Origin: a virus
Direction: 5' to 3' (one strand)
Length of the DNA stretch: 39,833 nucleotides
IMG/VR virus record: IMGVR_UViG_3300021373_002327
Span: 1 to 39,833 of that record
How positions within the stretch are numbered: position 1 is the stretch's first letter; each line of letters starts with the position of its first letter. Shown here piece after piece: positions 4,873 to 21,682 of the stretch. A program made the translations under genes and the position numbers. The notes beneath the pieces are model-generated. The model searched no databases, was not told the DNA's origin, and saw nothing but the letters and a program-made list of their open reading frames with translations.

Positions 4873-7662
4873 TTAGTTTGTAATTCCCATTTCTTTATAC
4901 TTACGCTCTTTTGCGGATTTTAATAATGATCTTAGTTGTCTAAACGACAAATTTTTACTCTGATCACTTACTCCCAATTCCTCATTCGTTAAGTTTAACC
5001 AATCAGGCGTGGTAAAGAGCTCACACTCGTATTCACGTCTTTGTACATAATCCTGTCGTACTACAACATCACTGTCAGGACCTACCTTTCCAGTTCTCCA
5101 ACGTTTCATTAATGTTGGTACTCTTTCGTAGTTTCCGTTATTTAATTCTAATAACAATTCGCTTTTAGCAAATCTATCTACTCCTATGTGAGTAGCAAAA
5201 CTTACTAATGCTAATAATTGGTTATCGCTTATTTCTACTGTTATTAGATCTGATATGAGTCTTTTAGTTTCACCTAATCTGCTTATGAGACCTAACTGTT
5301 GTCCAACTGGTCCTATACCATTAGATACATCTACGATTTTATTTCCTGTTTTTCTGTCTGCGAATATCAAACTAGGTCCATCTACTACCATGTCTACTTG
5401 TTTTTCTGCTAATGCATCTTTTACTGCTGTAAAGTTTTTTGATGTAACTCCCATAGAACCCATAGGCTCTCCAGTAACCCCATCATATATTTCCCGGTAG
5501 TCTCCAACTTTTCCTTTTAAGAGGTCTGCATGGGTTCTTAAATCATTCACTGCGCCGCTAATTTCACTAGCCCTGCTTTGAAGTTCGTTTACTGAATCCA
5601 CAACACCTGTAATTTTATTTTTCATTTCTTTTATTTGCAAAGAATCTAGATCTATAGGTAAGTCAAAATCATTTAAACTAAATTGCCCTAGTCTTCCTTC
5701 TAATTCTTTCAAATCTTTAGCAACACCTATAACTTTATCTCCTAATGCATTGCCTGTGGGGAACCTAAATGCAGGAATGGCTATGCCTAATGCCGCCATT
5801 AGTCCTGACATATTTTTTATACCCATTAAATTTTTCATACTTGCTGGTAAGAAATTACTAGCCATTCCTGTAATGTCTTCCATATTTGGAATCATACCAA
5901 GAGCAGAGTCTATGGCTCCACCAACTTGATCGCTTACTGCTCCTATTCCATTCCCTATTGCTGAAGATATATCAGATGCGGTTCCTACTGCTCCAGATGC
6001 CTTATCGGCAAAGCCATTTCCTTTTTTATCTCCTTTAGGCGTGACGGAGTCTGCTGGGTTATCATCTCCTGCTTCAATTTGATTTGGTAATGTTTCTTTA
6101 TCTGCGTTCTTATCCTCTCCTATTGATGAGGGATCTTCTGTGGTTGGGTCAAACTGTCCATGCCCATCGTATGGTTCAGCAGTTATTAATGTTCCCACAA
6201 TAGTGCTTATTTTTGTTTTTTTACCTGGCCTTTTACCGCCACTAGTCAATACAACATCACCTTCCCGGTCGTATTCAGGTGGATCACTTGGTTGATCTTC
6301 TATGTCGTTTCCATCTAACGAAGGTGCAGAAACTTTTAATGCTTCTAATCCTGTAAGTACTGGTGCAGGCCCTGTATTTAAATTTATTAGACCTCCAGAT
6401 ATTCCTGTTAGTGCTGATGTAACTCCTACTGAGGGTGCGGCAATGCCTACAACACCAGCGACTGCTTTTATATCTACACCCATTGTTGTAGATGTGATAG
6501 AAGTTGCTGTACCACTTGCTGTCTTTAGCATGTTGCCACAGTTAATGTCTATGTCGCCGCCTATAGCAGATAGTTGAGCATTACGAGTTGCTAACATACC
6601 CATATCTGCGGCCGCATGAAAATTTATATTTCCTCCTGAACCTAATGGTGGCAATCCTAATTTTCCTAATTTAACTCCAGTATAATCTCCTGCTATATTA
6701 TCTCCTGCGGCTTTTACTCTTACGTTTTGACCTGCTTCAATATTAATATCATAGTCTGCTCGTAAGTTAAAATTCTTTTTAGCTCTTAGATTAAGATCAC
6801 CTTCTCCAAAAACATTTATATTGCCAAGCCTGTCTAACTCCACCCATGCTTTTCCGTCTTTATTGATCATGTAAATGGAGCCAGTTACATCATCTAATAA
6901 TATTTGTTGCCCTTTACCGGATCGCAATCTAATCATTGAACTGGTTGTTTCATCATCCATTACAAACTGATGTCCTGCCCCAATAACTGTTGTGCCGTCT
7001 TTACCCCTAGGGCCTTTTGTAAGTATTCCTACTAGTGAACTAGGTGTCTCTCTTCTTGCACCTTGCGTTCCTGCTCCTCTTATGTTGTCATTTATAAGGC
7101 CTTGCTTAGTAATTGCTTCAGCCATATCATGGTGTACTGGCCTCAATATATTGTTATGGCCTTTTTGTTCAGAGTATTTGTTTTTTTCTGCCGCAGGAAG
7201 TAAAAAGTTTCCTCCTTGAAAAGTCTTCCCTGCAGGTATGCCAGGAATCATATGATTAAAATCTGGTGGTAAAACGTGACTTAATATGTATCCGTGTTTG
7301 GTGTTACCGTCAGCAAATGCAACCAGAACCATACTTCCAACATCTGGTGGTGAGGTCCACATTCCGTAACTTTGTTGTGTATTTTCATACTTTTCTGTGT
7401 CGTTAGCCTTTAGATTATCTATGTTAGAAATGCCGCCAAACGGTGTAGAAAATCTTACCTTTTTTATTGATTTTACTTTTGTGCCAGTAGTTTTATGTAA
7501 TTGTGGGATTTCAACATCTACCGAACCTGTATAGAAACTGTCTTGATTGTTTACAATTTTAGCAAGAAAGATACCATTATCTAAATGATCAGGTTTATCA
7601 GGCTCAGGATTATGAAATGTGGTCCCTAAGATCTGCTGTGAATAATCTCCTTTCTTACCCAT
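4873..7662 (-). CDS. 5: Baseplate central spike / hub protein gp5
   Basis: 929 residues. The N-terminal part (about 30-150) is the gp5/VgrG-type OB-fold, with GIFLAKIVNNQDSFYTGSVD and MWTSPPDVGSMVLVAFADG. Around 250-420 come short repeats with alternating charged and glycine residues (GDLNLRAKKNFNLRADYDIN), which fit the triple beta-helix needle. A long Gly/Asp/Ser-rich linker with coiled-coil stretches follows. The last 150 residues resemble the C-terminal lobe of a T4-lysozyme-type GH24 domain (LLALVSFATHIGVDRFAKSE, LFTTPDWL). T4 gp5 has the lysozyme before the needle; here it is last. I cannot see the usual catalytic Glu-x8-Asp-x5-Thr lobe before it, so the domain may be inactive. The gene overlaps the upstream hub gene by eight bases. 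Confidence 0.88.
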   Translation of the reverse strand: MGKKGDYSQQILGTTFHNPEPDKPDHLDNGIFLAKIVNNQDSFYTGSVDVEIPQLHKTTGTKVKSIKKVRFSTPFGGISNIDNLKANDTEKYENTQQSYGMWTSPPDVGSMVLVAFADGNTKHGYILSHVLPPDFNHMIPGIPAGKTFQGGNFLLPAAEKNKYSEQKGHNNILRPVHHDMAEAITKQGLINDNIRGAGTQGARRETPSSLVGILTKGPRGKDGTTVIGAGHQFVMDDETTSSMIRLRSGKGQQILLDDVTGSIYMINKDGKAWVELDRLGNINVFGEGDLNLRAKKNFNLRADYDINIEAGQNVRVKAAGDNIAGDYTGVKLGKLGLPPLGSGGNINFHAAADMGMLATRNAQLSAIGGDIDINCGNMLKTASGTATSITSTTMGVDIKAVAGVVGIAAPSVGVTSALTGISGGLINLNTGPAPVLTGLEALKVSAPSLDGNDIEDQPSDPPEYDREGDVVLTSGGKRPGKKTKISTIVGTLITAEPYDGHGQFDPTTEDPSSIGEDKNADKETLPNQIEAGDDNPADSVTPKGDKKGNGFADKASGAVGTASDISSAIGNGIGAVSDQVGGAIDSALGMIPNMEDITGMASNFLPASMKNLMGIKNMSGLMAALGIAIPAFRFPTGNALGDKVIGVAKDLKELEGRLGQFSLNDFDLPIDLDSLQIKEMKNKITGVVDSVNELQSRASEISGAVNDLRTHADLLKGKVGDYREIYDGVTGEPMGSMGVTSKNFTAVKDALAEKQVDMVVDGPSLIFADRKTGNKIVDVSNGIGPVGQQLGLISRLGETKRLISDLITVEISDNQLLALVSFATHIGVDRFAKSELLLELNNGNYERVPTLMKRWRTGKVGPDSDVVVRQDYVQRREYECELFTTPDWLNLTNEELGVSDQSKNLSFRQLRSLLKSAKERKYKEMGITN

Positions 7663-13788: not shown

Positions 13789-15554
13789 TGTTAAAGATTA
13801 AAAACGTATCAGCAAAGAATTTTATGAGTGTTGGCAACAACACACAGGCAGTTAATTTTGATAACTGCCAACTTACACTTGTACTAGGTCATAACTTAGA
13901 CATGGGCGGAGACGGTAGCAGAAATGGTACTGGCAAAACTACTATAATAAATGCACTCAGTTATGCATTGTACGGTGAAGCATTGACTAATATCCGTAAA
14001 GATAACCTCATAAACAAAACAAACGGCAAAGGTATGATAACCACAGTTGAGTTTGAAATACAAGGCAAAAAATACAGAATAGAAAGAGGCAGAAGGCCTA
14101 ACATTTTAAAGTTTTACATAGATGGCGAAGATGCTATAAGTGAAGAACAACAAGGCGATAGCAGAGAGACACAAAAAGAGATAGAAAAAATTATAGGCTT
14201 TCCACATAATATGTTTAAGCATTTAATTGCATTAAATACCTATACTGAACCTTTCCTTGCTATGAAAAATAATGACCAAAAGGACATGATTGAGCAGTTG
14301 TTGGGTATTACAGAATTATCTCTTAAAGCAGAAGTGTTAAAGGAAAGACAAAAGTTTACTAGAGATAGTATTAAAGAAGAAGAAATTACGATCAATGCCA
14401 TAGAGGCAAGTAATAAAAGAATAGAAAAAAACATTACTGAAATAGAAAGTCGTAGTAAAGCCTGGGAAATAAACAAAGAAAATAAATTAAACGAATTAGG
14501 CATAGCAATAGTAGATATGGAAAAACTTGACATAGAGCAAGAACTAAAAAATCATAAATTGAAAACAGATTTAAAAGAAAAAAGAAGTACTAAACTAACA
14601 CTTGAAACAGAATTAAAAAGATTAGATACTAGTTTAAATAGAAGTAATGATAAATTAGACCAACTTAAAAGTGATTTAGAGAGTGCAAAAGCAGGTGTGT
14701 GTCCAGCATGTGAACAACCTACTGCTCATTTAGATACACATGAAGAATACACAAAAGAAGTAGAAGATAAAATTGTTGCTGAAGAAGTATACAATAAAGA
14801 AATAGTAGAAAGACATGATGAAGTATTATTGGCTGTACAAGATTTTACTGATATAGACCAAGATCCTTTAACAACTTATACCACTTTAGAAGAGGCACTA
14901 CAGCATAAACACAATTTAGAAACTATGCATAGCCAATTGTCTGATAAAGCAGAAGAAGTAAATCCTTATATAGAACAAATAGAAGGATTGCGTACAACAG
15001 GTATACAAGAAATTAGTTTTGATATAATGAACGAACTAACTCATTTACAAGAGCATCAAGACTTTTTATACAAACTTCTTACTAGTAAGGATAGTTTTAT
15101 CAGAAAGAAAATTATTGACCAAAATATTGCATATATGAACCATAGACTTGGGTACTATTTAGACAAACTTGGTCTGCCACATGATGTAAAGTTTAGTAAT
15201 GACTTAGGTGTAGAAATTACAGAATATGGCAGAGACTTAGACTTTGATAATTTAAGTAGAGGCGAACGTAATAGGCTTATACTTGGTTTAAGTTGGGCAT
15301 TTAGAGATATGTACGAAAGTTTAAACAGACCTATGAACCTAATGTGTATTGATGAACTTGTTGATAGTGGTATGGATAGTATGGGTGTTGAAAATGCACT
15401 TGCTGTACTAAAGAAAATGCATCGTGAACAAGGTAAGAACATTATGTTAATATCACATAAAGAAGAACTGGTTGGTCGCGTAAACAATGTATTAACAGTC
15501 GTAAAAGAAGGTGGGTTTACGAGTTATAATACAGATACTGAGTATGTTGGTTGA
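13788..15554 (+). CDS. 46: Recombination endonuclease subunit gp46 (Rad50-like ATPase)
   Basis: 588 residues of SMC/Rad50 type. The Walker A motif GSRNGTGKTT is near residue 43. A charged coiled coil follows and reaches a zinc hook CPAC (Cys305, Cys308). The return coil leads to the ABC signature LSRGERNRL (about 490) and Walker B LMCIDELVDSG. It forms the ATP-driven DNA-clamping half of the gp46/gp47 nuclease. The start overlaps the gene 47 stop by one base. The end overlaps the next gene by 11 bases, and the duplicated DNA block described below begins exactly inside its stop codon. Confidence 0.93.
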   Translation: MLKIKNVSAKNFMSVGNNTQAVNFDNCQLTLVLGHNLDMGGDGSRNGTGKTTIINALSYALYGEALTNIRKDNLINKTNGKGMITTVEFEIQGKKYRIERGRRPNILKFYIDGEDAISEEQQGDSRETQKEIEKIIGFPHNMFKHLIALNTYTEPFLAMKNNDQKDMIEQLLGITELSLKAEVLKERQKFTRDSIKEEEITINAIEASNKRIEKNITEIESRSKAWEINKENKLNELGIAIVDMEKLDIEQELKNHKLKTDLKEKRSTKLTLETELKRLDTSLNRSNDKLDQLKSDLESAKAGVCPACEQPTAHLDTHEEYTKEVEDKIVAEEVYNKEIVERHDEVLLAVQDFTDIDQDPLTTYTTLEEALQHKHNLETMHSQLSDKAEEVNPYIEQIEGLRTTGIQEISFDIMNELTHLQEHQDFLYKLLTSKDSFIRKKIIDQNIAYMNHRLGYYLDKLGLPHDVKFSNDLGVEITEYGRDLDFDNLSRGERNRLILGLSWAFRDMYESLNRPMNLMCIDELVDSGMDSMGVENALAVLKKMHREQGKNIMLISHKEELVGRVNNVLTVVKEGGFTSYNTDTEYVG

Positions 15555-16335
15555 TATCCATTTAGGGCATAACAAAGATTATACTCTTACTTACGAACTT
15601 TTTGATAATAATGTCGCATCAAAGATTTGGAAGCGACTTAATAATAAAAATTTTCCTGTATCTCAAAGTAGTCTATTTTACGGATTTGGAGAATCTTCCA
15701 AAGATATAGAAAAGAATTTAAATAATTGTATTGCTGAGCTTAAATTAAAAATTCCTGATTTAAAAGTACTGAGCAATGATTTAAATTATCTACATAATTT
15801 GTATGTATCACTTCATAATAAACTTTTATCGGAAAAGTATCCCTCGCAAAAAGTACAAACTCTATTACAAAATTTAAATAAATCTATTATTCATTTAAAT
15901 AGTTTAAAGGGAACTAATAATACTAAAATTTTAGTAAACACAGAAGATACAGGAGAGCCTTTAGTGGACGAAGATTATGACCTGTTTGACCCTAACATGA
16001 GGAAAAATTGGTTATATATGAATTATCCACATATAGGTAAACATATTATGGGAATATTTAATTCTGGAGATATTAACATACCTAAAGAACAAATAATTCC
16101 TACTTCTGTTTTAAAAAGTAATTTTGTTTGTTGGTTAGACGAAGACGTTTTAGCAGGAAAAACATATTTAAAAAACTTAAATAGATTTCTCGCAAAAATA
16201 CACAATAAACTTCCGTATCCAATAGATGATAAAAAACTTGCTATTGGTAACATTCCACTAGGCAAACTAACACACGAACCAGATTTATTAGAAATAAAAA
16301 GACACAATGTTGTTCATTCAGTAAAAGCATCATGA
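15544..16335 (+). CDS. Unknown protein, tandem paralogue 1
   Basis: 263 residues, function not recognised. The protein opens with MLVDIHLGHNKDYTLTYELF and ends with PYPIDDKKLAIGNIPLGKLT then HEPDLLE. Both blocks recur in the next gene. In between lies EPLVDEDYDLFDP, then YMNYPHIGKHIM and a VPTS-like loop (IIPTSVLKSNFVCW). There is no signal peptide or membrane helix. The ATG at 15544 is chosen because the homology starts there and it overlaps the gene 46 stop; a frame extension to 15511 lies wholly inside gene 46. Conserved His, Asp and Glu residues could suggest an enzyme, but I can assign no reaction. The location after 46/47 suggests early expression. Confidence 0.75.
   Translation: MLVDIHLGHNKDYTLTYELFDNNVASKIWKRLNNKNFPVSQSSLFYGFGESSKDIEKNLNNCIAELKLKIPDLKVLSNDLNYLHNLYVSLHNKLLSEKYPSQKVQTLLQNLNKSIIHLNSLKGTNNTKILVNTEDTGEPLVDEDYDLFDPNMRKNWLYMNYPHIGKHIMGIFNSGDINIPKEQIIPTSVLKSNFVCWLDEDVLAGKTYLKNLNRFLAKIHNKLPYPIDDKKLAIGNIPLGKLTHEPDLLEIKRHNVVHSVKAS
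15553..15609 (+). repeat. 5' copy of the 57-base block shared by the paralogues
   Basis: 57 bases, identical except for one base to 16341-16397. The block starts inside the gene 46 stop codon and covers the first conserved motif of paralogue 1. A second shared block, 27 identical bases, is at 16261-16287 and 17040-17066, near the gene ends. Confidence 0.9.
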
Positions 16336-17114
16336 AAATAGATATCCATTTAGGGCATAACAAAGATTATACTCTTACTTACGAACTTTTCGATAATCGT
16401 GTTGCAAAACGTATATGGGAACGTTTTCAGGAAAATGATTTTGAGTATGTGAGCAGAACACAGTTTTATAATTTTGGTGAAACTGAAGAAGATGTAAAAG
16501 CACAGTTAAATAAATCTATTCAAAAAATTAAAGAACTAGATCCAGACATGCCTTTAGATTGGGTCAATGACCTAAATAAACTTCATATTGCCTTCCCTGA
16601 TAATGTAAAGCAGAGTACCGGCGAGTTACTTCACTGGTGGAGTATGTTTAATTATCACTTGCACCATTTAGAAGATATCACTAGATATCAAAATAAAAGA
16701 TTTTTAACTTGTTCACATTGTGAGGGAGAACCATTGCTGGAAGAAGATTATGATCTTTTTTCTCCCACAAGGCTTAAAAACCATTTGTATATGAATTACC
16801 CACATGTAGGTAAACACATTATGGAACTAGCAATAGATAATGATGTGGACATACCTGCAAATCATATTGTACCCACGTCTATACTAAAGAATGACCTTGT
16901 GGCTTGGTTTGGTAGGAATCTGTATGTTGATAATCATGAGAAAGTCGTTAAAGACATTAAAAGATGGTGCGTCAAAGTTAATAACAAACTTCCTTACCCA
17001 ATAGACGACAAGAGACTTGCTATAGGACATATTCCGTTAGGCAAACTAACACACGAACCAGATTTAGACACTATAGCAAACAACCAATATTTTCATAGTG
17101 TAACATGTTATTAG
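16332..17114 (+). CDS. Unknown protein, tandem paralogue 2
   Basis: 260 residues, a paralogue of the gene before it. The start overlaps the previous stop (ATGA). It shares DIHLGHNKDYTLTYELFDN, EPLLEEDYDLFSP, YMNYPHVGKHIM, IVPTSILKNDLVAWF and the C-terminal GKLTHEPDL. The central part is clearly diverged, and this copy has a Cys pair (LTCSHCEGEP) that copy 1 replaces with Thr/Glu residues. Function is unknown. The pair arose by tandem duplication, with the two gene ends kept nearly identical at DNA level. A terminator hairpin starts within its stop codon. Confidence 0.75.
   Translation: MKIDIHLGHNKDYTLTYELFDNRVAKRIWERFQENDFEYVSRTQFYNFGETEEDVKAQLNKSIQKIKELDPDMPLDWVNDLNKLHIAFPDNVKQSTGELLHWWSMFNYHLHHLEDITRYQNKRFLTCSHCEGEPLLEEDYDLFSPTRLKNHLYMNYPHVGKHIMELAIDNDVDIPANHIVPTSILKNDLVAWFGRNLYVDNHEKVVKDIKRWCVKVNNKLPYPIDDKRLAIGHIPLGKLTHEPDLDTIANNQYFHSVTCY
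16341..16397 (+). repeat. 3' copy of the 57-base block shared by the paralogues
   Basis: Second copy of the block at 15553-15609, with one mismatch. The matching DNA includes synonymous sites, unlike the middle of the two genes. Confidence 0.9.
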
Positions 17115-17581: not shown

Positions 17582-18004
17582 TTATAAGGTCTTTAAGGCT
17601 TCCTTAAGGATTTTTGAACCACCTACTCTGACGTTGATGATTCCATTGTAGTAGTCATCAGTTTCAAGTACTCGCCTTTCGAATTGCTCTCGGGCTTCTA
17701 TGTAACTTGCTACTCCTCTACTAGGGCAATAATACAATATTTCTCTACGAAATTTATCTTCTCCCAGCTCAGCAACATCATTATTCAAATGATCACTACT
17801 ACCCCAATAAGTACGCCAGTCACTCTCTTTAGTGCCTCTGCGTTTGTTCTTTTTTCCTTTTAATGGGGGTTTAGTTGTTTTGAATTTGGCTAATTTTTTG
17901 CCAACATACTTTTTGTTGTTAGTTAAATTTGTTATTAAGTAAACAAATGCTTCGCAGTCATCAGGTAATTCTGTAACTTCTTTATTATTATAGTACCAGC
18001 TCAT
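17582..18004 (-). CDS. GIY-YIG family endonuclease-like protein
   Basis: 140 residues. The GIY-YIG core is visible as VYLITNLTNNKKYVGKK (about residues 21-37), in which VYL and YVG stand for the two name-giving motifs. A basic loop follows (KGKKNKRRGTKESDWRTYWG), with the conserved Arg region, and then a helix with the candidate metal-binding Glu (YIEAREQFERRVLE). The protein is little longer than the domain itself, with no obvious DNA-binding tail, so it may be a Seg-like freestanding nuclease or a conserved T4-like marine phage protein of other use. Its ATG overlaps the stop of the gene-51-position frame by one base (TAATG), so it is part of the gene 26 operon. Confidence 0.75.
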   Translation of the reverse strand: MSWYYNNKEVTELPDDCEAFVYLITNLTNNKKYVGKKLAKFKTTKPPLKGKKNKRRGTKESDWRTYWGSSDHLNNDVAELGEDKFRREILYYCPSRGVASYIEAREQFERRVLETDDYYNGIINVRVGGSKILKEALKTL

Positions 18005-18237
18005 TATAAATCTTCTGTGCCAGATTGATTATTTTTCTTTTTAAAGTAATTATTTAATGTTTTTACATACATGTTTCTTTCATAAGGACTCATGCTCCAA
18101 AGCTCTGCATAAGTTACTTTTCCTTCTGAGTAAATCAGAGTTTCCATAATGTTTTTAAATATGGCCTCTGAGTCTTTTTTGAGCTTCTCTAGGAACTTGA
18201 GGATTTCCTCAGGTTCGGCCCTTGCTAGGAAGCCGTG
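18004..18237 (-). CDS. Gene-51-position frame, candidate -1 frameshift extension of gp26
   Basis: A 77-codon frame begins at the slippery site in gene 26 and stops at 18004-18006. It lies in the -1 frame relative to gene 26 and is open straight through the gene 26 stop. Key parts are EEILKFLEKLKKDSEAIFKN and YSEGKVTYAELWSMSPYERN, then MYVKTLNNYFKKKN. The first ATG is only at 18147, giving a 47-residue product with no clear ribosome site, and the residues before that ATG look like genuine protein. In T4 gene 51 follows 26, but gp51 there is about 250 residues. I infer that this frame is made mainly as a gp26 fusion, like the G/GT tail-assembly chaperones of other phages. Confidence 0.65.
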   Translation of the reverse strand, partial: HGFLARAEPEEILKFLEKLKKDSEAIFKNIMETLIYSEGKVTYAELWSMSPYERNMYVKTLNNYFKKKNNQSGTEDL

Positions 18238-19061
18238 AAAAAATTTACAGGATCGAACGATATAGGTGCTTCAAAGGTTTCATTGCATTCCTCACATTCA
18301 AATTGCATTGATTTATTAATACCTATCTTATTAATTTCTGCAACTTGCTGTTCTATAGCATTTCCAATTGATGCTTCACAGTTATCTAAAAACTCTCTTA
18401 TATGGCCACGGTCTGTAACAATTTTATCTTCTATTTTTATAGAATGTACAGCATCTACTATCAATGTGTAGTTCATATCTGCCATCCTCATAAAGTTTTC
18501 ATTAAAAACTTTTAATTTATCCATATCATCTGGTATATCTGCGAGTGCCTGCAAACTTCTTGTGCTCTGAAAACTGGCAATACCTGCCGTAATTGTGTTT
18601 TCATACTTAAATGGTTTTATTTCTATTTCTAAATCTTCAAATTTAACTGTGTAAACTTCATCTAAAATAGCCATAGTTTCTATAGCACCCTCGACACTTG
18701 CTACGCCTGAAATCGGTTCTTCACAAGTAGGACAAGGAGTTGATACTTCTATATCGTCTCCATGTGTTGCGCCTTGGATTGCAACTAATAGTACATCAAC
18801 GTCATTTGAAATAAGTTGATTTACTTTTTTAACATTTGGTACGCAACTAGATATTAGTTGATTTATTGCTTCTCCATTAAGTAAAGCATCTGGGTTTTTC
18901 ATAATAAGCTCGTCTTTGGCTGTCATAGGAAAAATAGGAAGTTCACCTGAATCAGGATAGTCTAAAATATCAGATGTGTAAAACTTACCTCCTGATGGTA
19001 TCTTTACATACAATTTTGGCGATCTAAAATGACCGCTTAAAGGATTTGGTGTATTTGACAT
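18225..19061 (-). CDS. 26: Baseplate hub assembly protein gp26
   Basis: 278 residues. The diagnostic stretch is KIPSGGKFYTSDILDYPDSG, followed by ELPIFPMTAKDELIMKNPDA and LLNGEAINQLISSCVPNV, which matches T4 gp26. Two CxxC pairs (Cys110/Cys113 in CPTCEEP and Cys256/Cys259 in CEECNE) probably bind zinc. T4 gp26 is about 208 residues and acts in hub assembly. The C-terminus is encoded by AAT-TTT-TTC, a U-UUU-UUC slippery heptamer in the correct phase, three codons before the stop (ACG GCT TCC TAG). The gene has its own late box in the divergent region shared with the tape measure. Confidence 0.88.
   Translation of the reverse strand: MSNTPNPLSGHFRSPKLYVKIPSGGKFYTSDILDYPDSGELPIFPMTAKDELIMKNPDALLNGEAINQLISSCVPNVKKVNQLISNDVDVLLVAIQGATHGDDIEVSTPCPTCEEPISGVASVEGAIETMAILDEVYTVKFEDLEIEIKPFKYENTITAGIASFQSTRSLQALADIPDDMDKLKVFNENFMRMADMNYTLIVDAVHSIKIEDKIVTDRGHIREFLDNCEASIGNAIEQQVAEINKIGINKSMQFECEECNETFEAPISFDPVNFFTAS
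18237..18243 (-). promoter_or_regulatory. Candidate -1 frameshift slippery heptamer
   Basis: T-TTT-TTC on the minus strand, read as AAT TTT TTC in the gene 26 frame at residues 273-275. After slipping back one base the ribosome reads CAC GGC TTC CTA, which stays open for 77 codons. A short stem (minus strand TGAGG-AAAT-CCTCA, 18198-18211) lies 25 bases downstream. That is farther than usual for a stimulatory element. Confidence 0.6.
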
Positions 19062-19165: not shown

Positions 19166-21682
19166 ATGGCAGATATTACTTTTGAAGATGGCGGAGGTAA
19201 CCAGAGAACGGTACCCGAATGGGCCACTGAAAGTACATTAAAGCGATTAGTAACAGCCTTAACAGGAAAACAATCTAAAGAACAGCAAAAGAAGACAGAA
19301 GAAGCGTTCAAAGATCTAAGTGATGGTCTTGGTGATTTAGGAGACAATCTAGAACAAGCAGGAAAGGCCTTTAAAAATTCTAGTGAACAAGTTGGCGATA
19401 GAGCTGGTGAATTCATAGGTAAAGTTGTAGACAAAACTGTAGGTGTTGCTTTGCTGACACTTGGAACAGCCGCCGCAGTTACTACAGCAAGTTTAACAAG
19501 GTTAGGCACATCATTAAACACTCTTAGCCAATCAGGTTTAGCTCTTTCAGGTAATACAATACAGCAGATAGCATCTTTGAATGAATTAGGAGTTAGTACA
19601 GATGATGTAACTAAGTTAATGCTGGAAAATTCTCAAGCATTTAGATCGTTAGGAACCACCAGCACAAACCAGGTTATAAGATCATTTTTAGAAATTACTA
19701 GGCAGGGTAACGATCTAGGCATGAGTTTAGATGATTCTATAGAATTCTTAGGTGATGAATTAACATTGAGAACACAACTATTAAATTTAGGTGCATTAGA
19801 CTTAAAACAAAGAGGTAAAATGTCTGCAGATATAGTACAACTTGGTAAAGATCAGTTGGCGTTCTCTAAAGCACTAGGTGTTAGCACAAGTATACAAAGA
19901 GAGTTCTCACAGTCAGTTTTAGGGAATAACCAAATGCTTATGTCTAATATGATTAGAACCAGCAGTGAGTCTAGGGCTCAGTTATTCACAGGACTTCAAG
20001 GTTTTCTATCAGGCATGAGAGCAATGGGTGGTGAAGTTGGCGGTGAAATAGCCGAAGCAGTATTAGAAGCGGCCAGTATGGGAGCAATAGGATTTAGTGA
20101 TGCCGCTTTTGGATTTGTAACAGTATTGCCAGGATTGGCAGATAACATGCAAAATGTTATTGCAGACTTTGAAGCAGGTATTATAGATGGCAGTGAAGCC
20201 GCAATGGCATTTACAAAAGAATTAGGAAATTTAAGCCAGGGCGAAAAAGACAGGGTATTCCTATTAGCCAGGGCAGGTGACGAACAAGCCAAAATGATGG
20301 CAAAAGCCATAGTACAATTTGAAACGGCCGCACAAAGAATGGAAGATCAAGGCACAACAATAGAAAATGTGCAGGAAGGCTTTAATGCTTTTAACACAAT
20401 CTTGTCAAAATTAAGAGGTGCGATTAGTAGTCTAACTAATAACTTTATGGCCGGCTTTGGTGAGGGTGTTGGTGATGTTACAGATATGATGGCCAATTTT
20501 AGTAATCAAATACAAAGGTTACTATTGCAATTTTTTAATATGCAAACAGAAGTAGGAGATACATCTAACGGAATACAAGCATTAGGTAAAAAAGTAGGTA
20601 AAGGTTTAAATGATTTTTTAGTTGCTACTATAAGTTGGGTAAAAGGATTTTTACAAGCATTTGATGAAGACGACTCAGTAATGGACAAGTTTGGTCATAT
20701 TGCAAAAAGAGCCGGAGAGGCACTAGTAGACGGTATTATAAACATCATTCCATGGGGTGAAATTACTGCGGCAATAGTTGGTGGATTTACCGCTATACTA
20801 ATAGCAATGAAACTTAAAACATCAATCCTTGGAGGTGGTTTTGGAGCGGCCGCAGGTGGCGTGGGAGGTGCTGGAATAGGCGCCTCTTTGAAAAGTGCGG
20901 CAGTTGGAATGAAGGCTCTCGGCGGAGTACCAATAGCGGCAATTGGTAAAGCAAGTTTAATATTAGGTGTGCTTACAGCCGCTATAATAGGATTAGGATT
21001 TGCACTTAAAATAGCCGCCCCAGGTATAAGAGCATTTGGTGATGTAATGCTAAATGTATTTAATGGAATAGCCACAGTATTAGAAAAAGTGTATTCAGGC
21101 ATAGCAAAAGTTATTGCCACAATTGGTAATGCAATCAGGGGCGATGAAGTAGGCAAAATAAAAGCAGAATCTGAAGCTCATCAAGCCAGTGTAAAAGCCA
21201 CAACAAATGCAATTAAAGAACTAGACGGGTCTGTAGATGCAAACGGATTAATGTTAATGGCACAAGGTGTAGATCATCTGGGTGATGCATTAGGAAATTT
21301 TGCAGGAAAGATGAGCCCCTCAATGTTAAGTAGTATAAGATCTGGTTTTGCTGATTTAATAGGACAAGATTCTCCGATACAGGCAGTAATAGGAATGTCA
21401 GAAGATGCAGATCCTGTAAAAATTATGGATTTGGCAAAAGCCACAATGGCCACAAATGCGGCAAACTCTGGTGCAACCGCTTTAGACCCTACATTACAAC
21501 AAGGATCAACCACATTAAATACAAATAACAATACCAGCACGGTAAACAATACCACTAATACTTTTGCTAATAGTGACATGAAAGAAGCGTTAGAAATGGT
21601 GTACGCAACTAATCAAGCACAGAACGATCTCATTAAACGTACTAATAGATTGCTATCTGAAATTAATAACAAGACCGGTTAA
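19166..21682 (+). CDS. Tail tape-measure protein (gp29 role)
   Basis: 838 residues, with the build of a tape measure. A charged coiled coil sits at the N-terminus (QSKEQQKKTEEAFKDLSDGL). Long Ala/Gly/Leu-rich helical stretches follow, with hydrophobic segments near 90-110, 540-600 and 640-665 (LILGVLTAAIIGLGFALKIA). The C-terminus is Asn/Thr-rich (TNNNTSTVNNTTNT) and ends in a helix. It lies divergent from gene 26, as expected for hub and tail-length genes. T4 gp29 is about 590 residues. At roughly 0.15 nm per helical residue, 838 residues would allow a tail up to about 125 nm. Direct similarity to gp29 is not evident to me, so the call rests on architecture and position. AGG precedes the ATG. 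Confidence 0.75.
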   Translation: MADITFEDGGGNQRTVPEWATESTLKRLVTALTGKQSKEQQKKTEEAFKDLSDGLGDLGDNLEQAGKAFKNSSEQVGDRAGEFIGKVVDKTVGVALLTLGTAAAVTTASLTRLGTSLNTLSQSGLALSGNTIQQIASLNELGVSTDDVTKLMLENSQAFRSLGTTSTNQVIRSFLEITRQGNDLGMSLDDSIEFLGDELTLRTQLLNLGALDLKQRGKMSADIVQLGKDQLAFSKALGVSTSIQREFSQSVLGNNQMLMSNMIRTSSESRAQLFTGLQGFLSGMRAMGGEVGGEIAEAVLEAASMGAIGFSDAAFGFVTVLPGLADNMQNVIADFEAGIIDGSEAAMAFTKELGNLSQGEKDRVFLLARAGDEQAKMMAKAIVQFETAAQRMEDQGTTIENVQEGFNAFNTILSKLRGAISSLTNNFMAGFGEGVGDVTDMMANFSNQIQRLLLQFFNMQTEVGDTSNGIQALGKKVGKGLNDFLVATISWVKGFLQAFDEDDSVMDKFGHIAKRAGEALVDGIINIIPWGEITAAIVGGFTAILIAMKLKTSILGGGFGAAAGGVGGAGIGASLKSAAVGMKALGGVPIAAIGKASLILGVLTAAIIGLGFALKIAAPGIRAFGDVMLNVFNGIATVLEKVYSGIAKVIATIGNAIRGDEVGKIKAESEAHQASVKATTNAIKELDGSVDANGLMLMAQGVDHLGDALGNFAGKMSPSMLSSIRSGFADLIGQDSPIQAVIGMSEDADPVKIMDLAKATMATNAANSGATALDPTLQQGSTTLNTNNNTSTVNNTTNTFANSDMKEALEMVYATNQAQNDLIKRTNRLLSEINNKTG

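Follow-up and report, generated by a model that had tools for sequence, protein, structure and literature searches.

The chaperone genes 26 and 51 were reportedly treated by Vladimirov, Gautam and Davidson in Virology in 2022, where frameshifting is said to be conserved in several T4-like groups. A passage of the PRFect paper refers to this 2022 work for T4-like phages, some of which are described as having one short and one fused long gene, and a passage of the paper on phage Adele (PMC12846349), citing the same work, refers to poly-T frameshift signals in the TAC-N genes of T4-like phages. Given that the poly-T frameshift of T4-like chaperones has already been described, the case reported here is not new in kind, and the original prediction, which knew of no such frameshift for genes 26 and 51, was out of date in this respect, as judged from the papers citing Vladimirov et al. 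2022. For lambda G/GT, passages of a 2016 recoding review describe a short form that coats the tape measure protein and a scarce long form that recruits further subunits; T4 is excepted there from the conserved G/GT frameshift. In passages of a 2010 review of the T4 tail, gp26 and gp51 are listed as hub assembly chaperones, with gp51 being absent from the final particle, essential, and of unknown function. A literature search that covered papers outside subscription, judged mostly by title, returned no closer title on a frameshift in jumbo phages or in gp51.

The window analysed here is the whole 39,833-nucleotide stretch of the IMG/VR virus record IMGVR_UViG_3300021373_002327. Its gp26-like protein matched PF12322 with E=4.5e-14 and 53.1 bits against a curated cut-off of 24.5, which places it in the family, and in a PHROGs profile search it matched phrog_150 (baseplate hub) with E=3.6e-16; tblastn with this protein retrieved 61 phage records. 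The last codons of the ORF are GTA AAT TTT TTC ACG GCT TCC TAG. A slip of one base on T_TTT_TTC would give FF followed by 77 residues, with a TAA at 18006-18004 overlapping, in TAATG, the start codon ATG of the next gene (18004), and the predicted fusion would comprise 275 + 77 = 352 amino acids. When the codons of the -1 frame are counted from the heptamer, no ATG, GTG or TTG is met before codon 33, which is an ATG. We therefore confirmed from the sequence that a heptamer lies in the right phase near the end of gene 26, that a 77-codon -1 frame ends at the next ATG, and that this frame has no start codon in its first 30 codons, all as had been predicted. The next gene, which had been taken for gene 51, encodes a SegE-type GIY-YIG endonuclease, and it is the extension that resembles gene 51. 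The endonuclease gene has phrog_447 'NAD synthetase' as its best PHROGs label, which seems misapplied.

Table 1 Features at and around the slippery junction in the window
Feature	Coordinates	Strand	Basis or remark
SegE-like GIY-YIG endonuclease, outside the chaperone; ATG overlaps the stop of the extension	17582..18004	minus	PF19835 E=1e-34
Extension in the -1 frame (TAC-C; 77 codons, then TAA), gp51-like COOH-terminal portion of the predicted long form	18004..18237	minus	
Candidate stimulatory stem 3' of the heptamer	18182..18234	minus	MFE fold; arms 18225-18234 + 18182-18192, inner hairpin
TAG ending the short form in the zero frame	18225..18227	minus	
gp26-like short form (TAC-N), 278 aa	18225..19061	minus	PF12322 / phrog_150; CxxC...CxxC pairs
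Slippery heptamer T_TTT_TTC	18237..18243	minus	In phase X_XXY_YYZ
Second in-phase heptamer A_AAT_TTT, overlapping T_TTT_TTC	18240..18246	minus	Window lineage; not general in jumbo phages
Probable tape measure protein, 838 aa, weakly supported, divergent	19166..21682	plus	tblastn + RaK2 position

The slippery heptamer of lambda is G_GGA_AAG, whereas that of the window is T_TTT_TTC. The two loci share the short and long design of G and GT, and the interpretation of the window gene as a tail-assembly-chaperone pair, as originally proposed, is supported; we consider it highly probable, on the comparisons given below, that the gene makes two tail-chaperone forms from one start through a -1 slip on T_TTT_TTC. 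Unlike lambda gpG/gpGT, the window gene is divergent from its neighbouring putative tape measure gene, and no lambda-type chaperone family was present among the Pfam and PHROGs matches listed for it. With the T4-like chaperones of Vladimirov et al. 2022, as described in papers citing that work, the window gene shares the short and long design, with a fused long gene or poly-T signals. The difference, to the extent that the citing papers convey the 2022 coverage, is that our loci come from an uncultured marine lineage and from the jumbo phages RaK2, 121Q, CBB, PA5oct, Atu_ph07, Phosso, SCTP-2 and others. The TAC locus of Vandenendeviridae and Andersonviridae, as presented in passages of the paper on phage Adele (PMC12846349), resembles the window in having a conserved poly-T -1 site and a C-terminal part for which annotations mostly give a hypothetical gene of its own, and differs from it in its GTTTTT motif and in the phage families concerned. 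The present analysis adds new members, a possible stem in the RNA, and a match of middling strength to the fold of the HK97 chaperone.

A single heptamer means little in this genome, because it is AT-rich and 90 in-phase X_XXY_YYZ heptamers (Y = A/T) occur among the 12,263 codons of 27 chosen window genes; three of the 90, including that at the junction, are T_TTT_TTC. The heptamer that had been called textbook is thus present and in phase, but by itself it is no more than chance would provide, and this abundance would suit an explanation by chance, in which an FF dipeptide before the stop of an AT-rich gene is followed by an accidental open frame. We collected relatives by similarity to gp26, the heptamer not being a criterion, from 23 IMG/VR loci near the window, 13 phage records, and scans with the gp26 proteins of RaK2, PA5oct and P-SSM2. 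This gave 122 loci besides the window, of which L080, with no stop in the locus, was left out, so that the gene end was in view in 121; the cyanophage type was represented by 80 loci, these being the best 80 of 570 relatives. As the original prediction had suggested looking for, both the in-phase heptamer (T_TTT_TTC in 119, T_TTT_TTT in 2) and the open -1 frame were found in 121/121 loci, with the cyanophage type again meaning the best 80 of 570. The frame was complete in 118 loci, ending 60-80 codons past the slip, and still open at the contig end in three. In the jumbo group, between 3 and 33 bases separate the heptamer from the zero-frame stop, with the heptamer kept throughout. The 121 loci are not fully independent, because redundant close relatives and near-copies were kept in the count (among the jumbo rows PA5oct and PAC2, RaK2 and its IMG/VR copy, L076 and L077, and L078 and L079); 103 distinct 310-nt junctions were present among 122, the window counted in. 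As judged by these counts, conservation of the junction is far beyond chance and decisive.

Codon analysis was performed with 14 of the 24 window-lineage sequences, near-duplicates having been removed. The codons GTA, AAT, TTT, TTC, GCT and TCC were identical in all 14, synonymous variation was 0.00 at GTA, AAT, TTT and TTC compared with a gene mean of 0.459, and the junction held the 9-codon stretches with the lowest synonymous variation in the gene. Both reading frames pass through GCT and TCC and through part of TTC, whereas GTA and AAT are read in the zero frame alone; given that these two codons precede the slip, double coding cannot account for their invariance. The pN/pS ratio of the extension was 0.46 in the -1 frame compared with 1.36 and 1.00 in the other two frames, which contain stops, and it was 0.41 across the 25 codons ahead of the first ATG of the window. 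Substitution patterns of this kind show purifying selection on the extension in the -1 frame only, including the stretch before the first ATG. Locus conservation and frame-specific selection together refute the explanation by chance, to which we assign a practically negligible probability.

Depositors have mostly treated the extension as a separate hypothetical gene, filing it as such in 9/12 annotated records, with no gene annotated there in PA5oct, PAC2 and RaK2 (3/12). If this annotation were correct, the extension would be translated by termination and re-initiation or from an internal start, and no fusion would be made, a possibility that we regard as improbable. PA5oct has no ATG, GTG or TTG anywhere in its -1 frame, nor does PAC2, and such codons are absent from the first 25 codons counted from the heptamer in 14/24 window-lineage and 4/18 jumbo-group loci (PA5oct, PAC2, RaK2, and the IMG/VR copy of RaK2). 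They do occur within the first 25 codons in the other 10/24 and 14/18 loci, respectively, with a GTG at codon 15 of the -1 frame in several window-lineage members, and all 80 cyanophage-type loci (L081-L160, the best 80 of 570 relatives) have an ATG 5 bases past the gp26 stop, so that their C-terminal part might also be made alone. A separate gene would, however, leave the invariant heptamer unexplained, as well as the purifying selection on codons ahead of the first ATG of the window, and the fused form occurs in frame in T4-type phages.

The two frames might also be joined by transcriptional rather than ribosomal slippage on the T run, which is present in every locus counted and which reaches 7 T in Cr30 and phiM12 and 8 T in HTVC008M, outside the 122-locus set. 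A run of six T is short for polymerase slippage. Among the 122 loci with the window counted in, the run was exactly 6 in 120 and 7 in 2, and the X_XXY_YYZ phase was kept in all 121 relatives. We consider transcriptional slippage to be somewhat less probable even than a separate gene, and ribosomal slippage remains the preferred explanation.

The extension alone matched phrog_634 ('baseplate hub assembly catalyst') weakly, with E=0.0022 over residues 41-74, and did not match any Pfam family. A phrog_634 match at the extension was found in 0/12 jumbo-phage records and 0/3 IMG/VR records, with a stray match elsewhere in Atu_ph07 (E=0.028). Profile comparison of the extensions gave 99.4% for the window and jumbo groups, 75% for the window and cyanophage/KVP40 groups, and 96.2% for the cyanophage/KVP40 group and T4 gp51, whereas direct comparison of the window extension with the COOH-terminus of T4 gp51 gave a negligible 1.3%. 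In these profile comparisons, the link from the window extension to the COOH-terminus of T4 gp51 goes via the cyanophage/KVP40 group.

T4 gp51 (249 aa) matched PF12322 over residues 1-201 with E=3.9e-52 and phrog_634 at residues 147-246. As read from these matches, gp51 is a gp26-family domain with an in-frame COOH-terminal extension, and in T4 the short form is therefore gene 26 and the long form gene 51. The paralogy of gp26 and gp51 can be read directly in the sequences, as can the conserved heptamer and frame and the selection on them. Genes 26 and 51 are divergent neighbours and constitute two PF12322 copies in T4, whereas 20 of 21 other records (3 of the 21 being IMG/VR fragments) have one copy; SCTP-2 had no PF12322 match at E<=0.01, though it was retrieved by tblastn. 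The layout of heptamer and -1 frame was present in 19/20 single-copy records. The exception, Vi01 (L049), has a single PF12322 gene with phrog_634 in an open -1 frame and no canonical heptamer at the junction. T_TTT_TT(C/T) stands at the end of the single gene in P-SSM2, HTVC008M, KVP40, Cr30 and phiM12, each with a phrog_634 match in the -1 frame.

Relatives without the heptamer, which had been named as possible evidence against the prediction, were found in the T4 type (heptamer in 0/9), which carries a second, in-frame long gene, gp51, instead; the presence of this gene supports, and does not refute, the idea of a chaperone pair. In the T4-type gp26 gene ends in view, the slippery run was absent in 9/9, with Phe-Phe encoded by TTC TTT or altered, and gene 26 of T4 itself has no heptamer at its end; the long form was in frame in all seven T4-type sequences aligned. 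The T4 proteins thus share with the window gene the same PF12322 domain and the same short and long pair, and differ from it in being encoded by two separate divergent genes, with the long form in frame and the slippery run lost. Two observations count against a chaperone role, because a chaperone is not expected in the virion: the record of CBB names the homologue 'structural protein', and passages of the 2010 T4 tail review also cite genetic evidence for gp26 inside the hub.

We obtained a structure model for gp26 with a mean pLDDT of 80.3 and one for the gp51-type protein with a pLDDT of 84.8. Neither model had a PDB match at E<=0.001 in Foldseek searches. With VIA-align, residues 4-101 of the gp26 model were aligned with the HK97 tail assembly chaperone 2ob9_B (Z 6.1, rmsd 4.7, 81 aligned; rank 11), a Z below 8 being one that may reflect a common arrangement. 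Among the best 50 matches listed, 2ob9_B was the only one on the NH2-terminal part of the model, the others starting at residue 132 or later. The gp51-type model matched gp26 and gp51 proteins and a protein of Citrobacter phage Moon named 'tape measure chaperone' in BFVD (E=8e-4); no tail chaperone was among its best 50 VIA-align matches listed. A search of PDB sequences with the gp26 profile did not find anything, and the two weak matches of the gp51 profile (E=0.1 and 0.52) were taken as chance. In the comparison of structures with known chaperones suggested in the original prediction, 2ob9_B was aligned by VIA-align and had no counterpart in the Foldseek search.

The region 3' of the heptamer was examined by folding the first 70 nt with 60 shuffles each and with upstream stretches of the same genes as controls; junctions with >90% similarity to another in the set and loci short of downstream DNA were left out. 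The mean z was -2.70 for 8 window-lineage sequences (-0.18 upstream), -1.38 for 14 jumbo sequences, 3 of them positive (-0.33 upstream), and -2.14 for 11 cyanophage-type sequences (+0.06 upstream). Over 87 nt the window alone had a z of -1.49, with 17/200 shuffles folding equally well, and the strongest of 11 sequences folded over this length were Atu_ph07 (-6.7) and Phosso (-4.5), with values of -3.0 and -1.8 over 70 nt. These results are suggestive of a stimulatory RNA stem 3' of the heptamer. A consensus fold calculated for 14 sequences reached a weak -1.06 kcal/mol, and pairing partners vary between lineages. A named 6-pair helix was paired in 93.1% of cells compared with 22-63% when slid, yet we do not claim it, because there was no two-sided change and one arm is nearly invariant. 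A long stem, GGCUCUU...AAGAGCC, lies just 3' of the heptamer in Atu_ph07 (L028) and Phosso (L025).

From these comparisons we infer frameshifting itself, its rate, and chaperone action, as follows. Most ribosomes would stop at the TAG and yield the short, gp26-like chaperone (TAC-N, 278 aa), and a minority would slip -1 on T_TTT_TTC, possibly aided by the overlapping A_AAT_TTT and the downstream RNA stem, and yield a 352-aa long form (TAC-NC) with a gp51-like COOH-terminal domain. If the two forms act as gpG and gpGT do in lambda, the tape measure protein would be coated, while hub and tail are being built, by a large number of short and a small number of long copies; tube or hub subunits would be brought in through the COOH-terminal domain, and neither form would remain. 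T4 and its close relatives would reach the same outcome with gene 26 (short) and gene 51 (long, in frame). We also put forward, as a tentative proposal that is somewhat more likely to fail than to hold, that the T4 superfamily as a whole, jumbo phages included, descends from a state with one frameshifted gene and a conserved RNA stimulator, that gene 51 of T4, the 'hub assembly catalyst', is a derived duplicate freezing the frameshift product in frame, and that the NH2-terminal domain of gp26 shares descent with the HK97 chaperone, which would join the T4 hub and siphophage chaperones. The loci described here would extend the T4-like chaperone frameshift to giant phages, in whose records annotators should join the two frames. 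If the scheme is true, the old 'catalytic' label of gp51 belongs to a scarce long chaperone, and a single frameshifting gene should replace T4 genes 26 and 51.

As for adjacency to the tape-measure gene, which had also been part of the original prediction and which is customary for chaperone pairs without defining them, the 838-aa neighbour is weakly tape-measure-like, and this gene is divergent and on the other strand. In a tblastn search, its product matched the tape measure protein of Flavobacterium phage immuto (39.6% over 91 aa, E=9e-5), and the RaK2 gene in the equivalent position was noted by its depositor as tape-measure-like; no PHROGs family was found for the 838-aa protein. Elsewhere in the window, the tandem genes at 15511-16335 and 16332-17114 (plus), which had no PHROGs match at E<=0.01, constitute a duplication, with DIHLGHNKDYTLTYELFDN as a shared motif at the opening and DDK(K/R)LAIG at the end of their products. 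The product of a large gene at 4873-7662 (minus) has a lysozyme domain and a stretch that weakly resembles DUF2345, and is perhaps a gp5-like spike.
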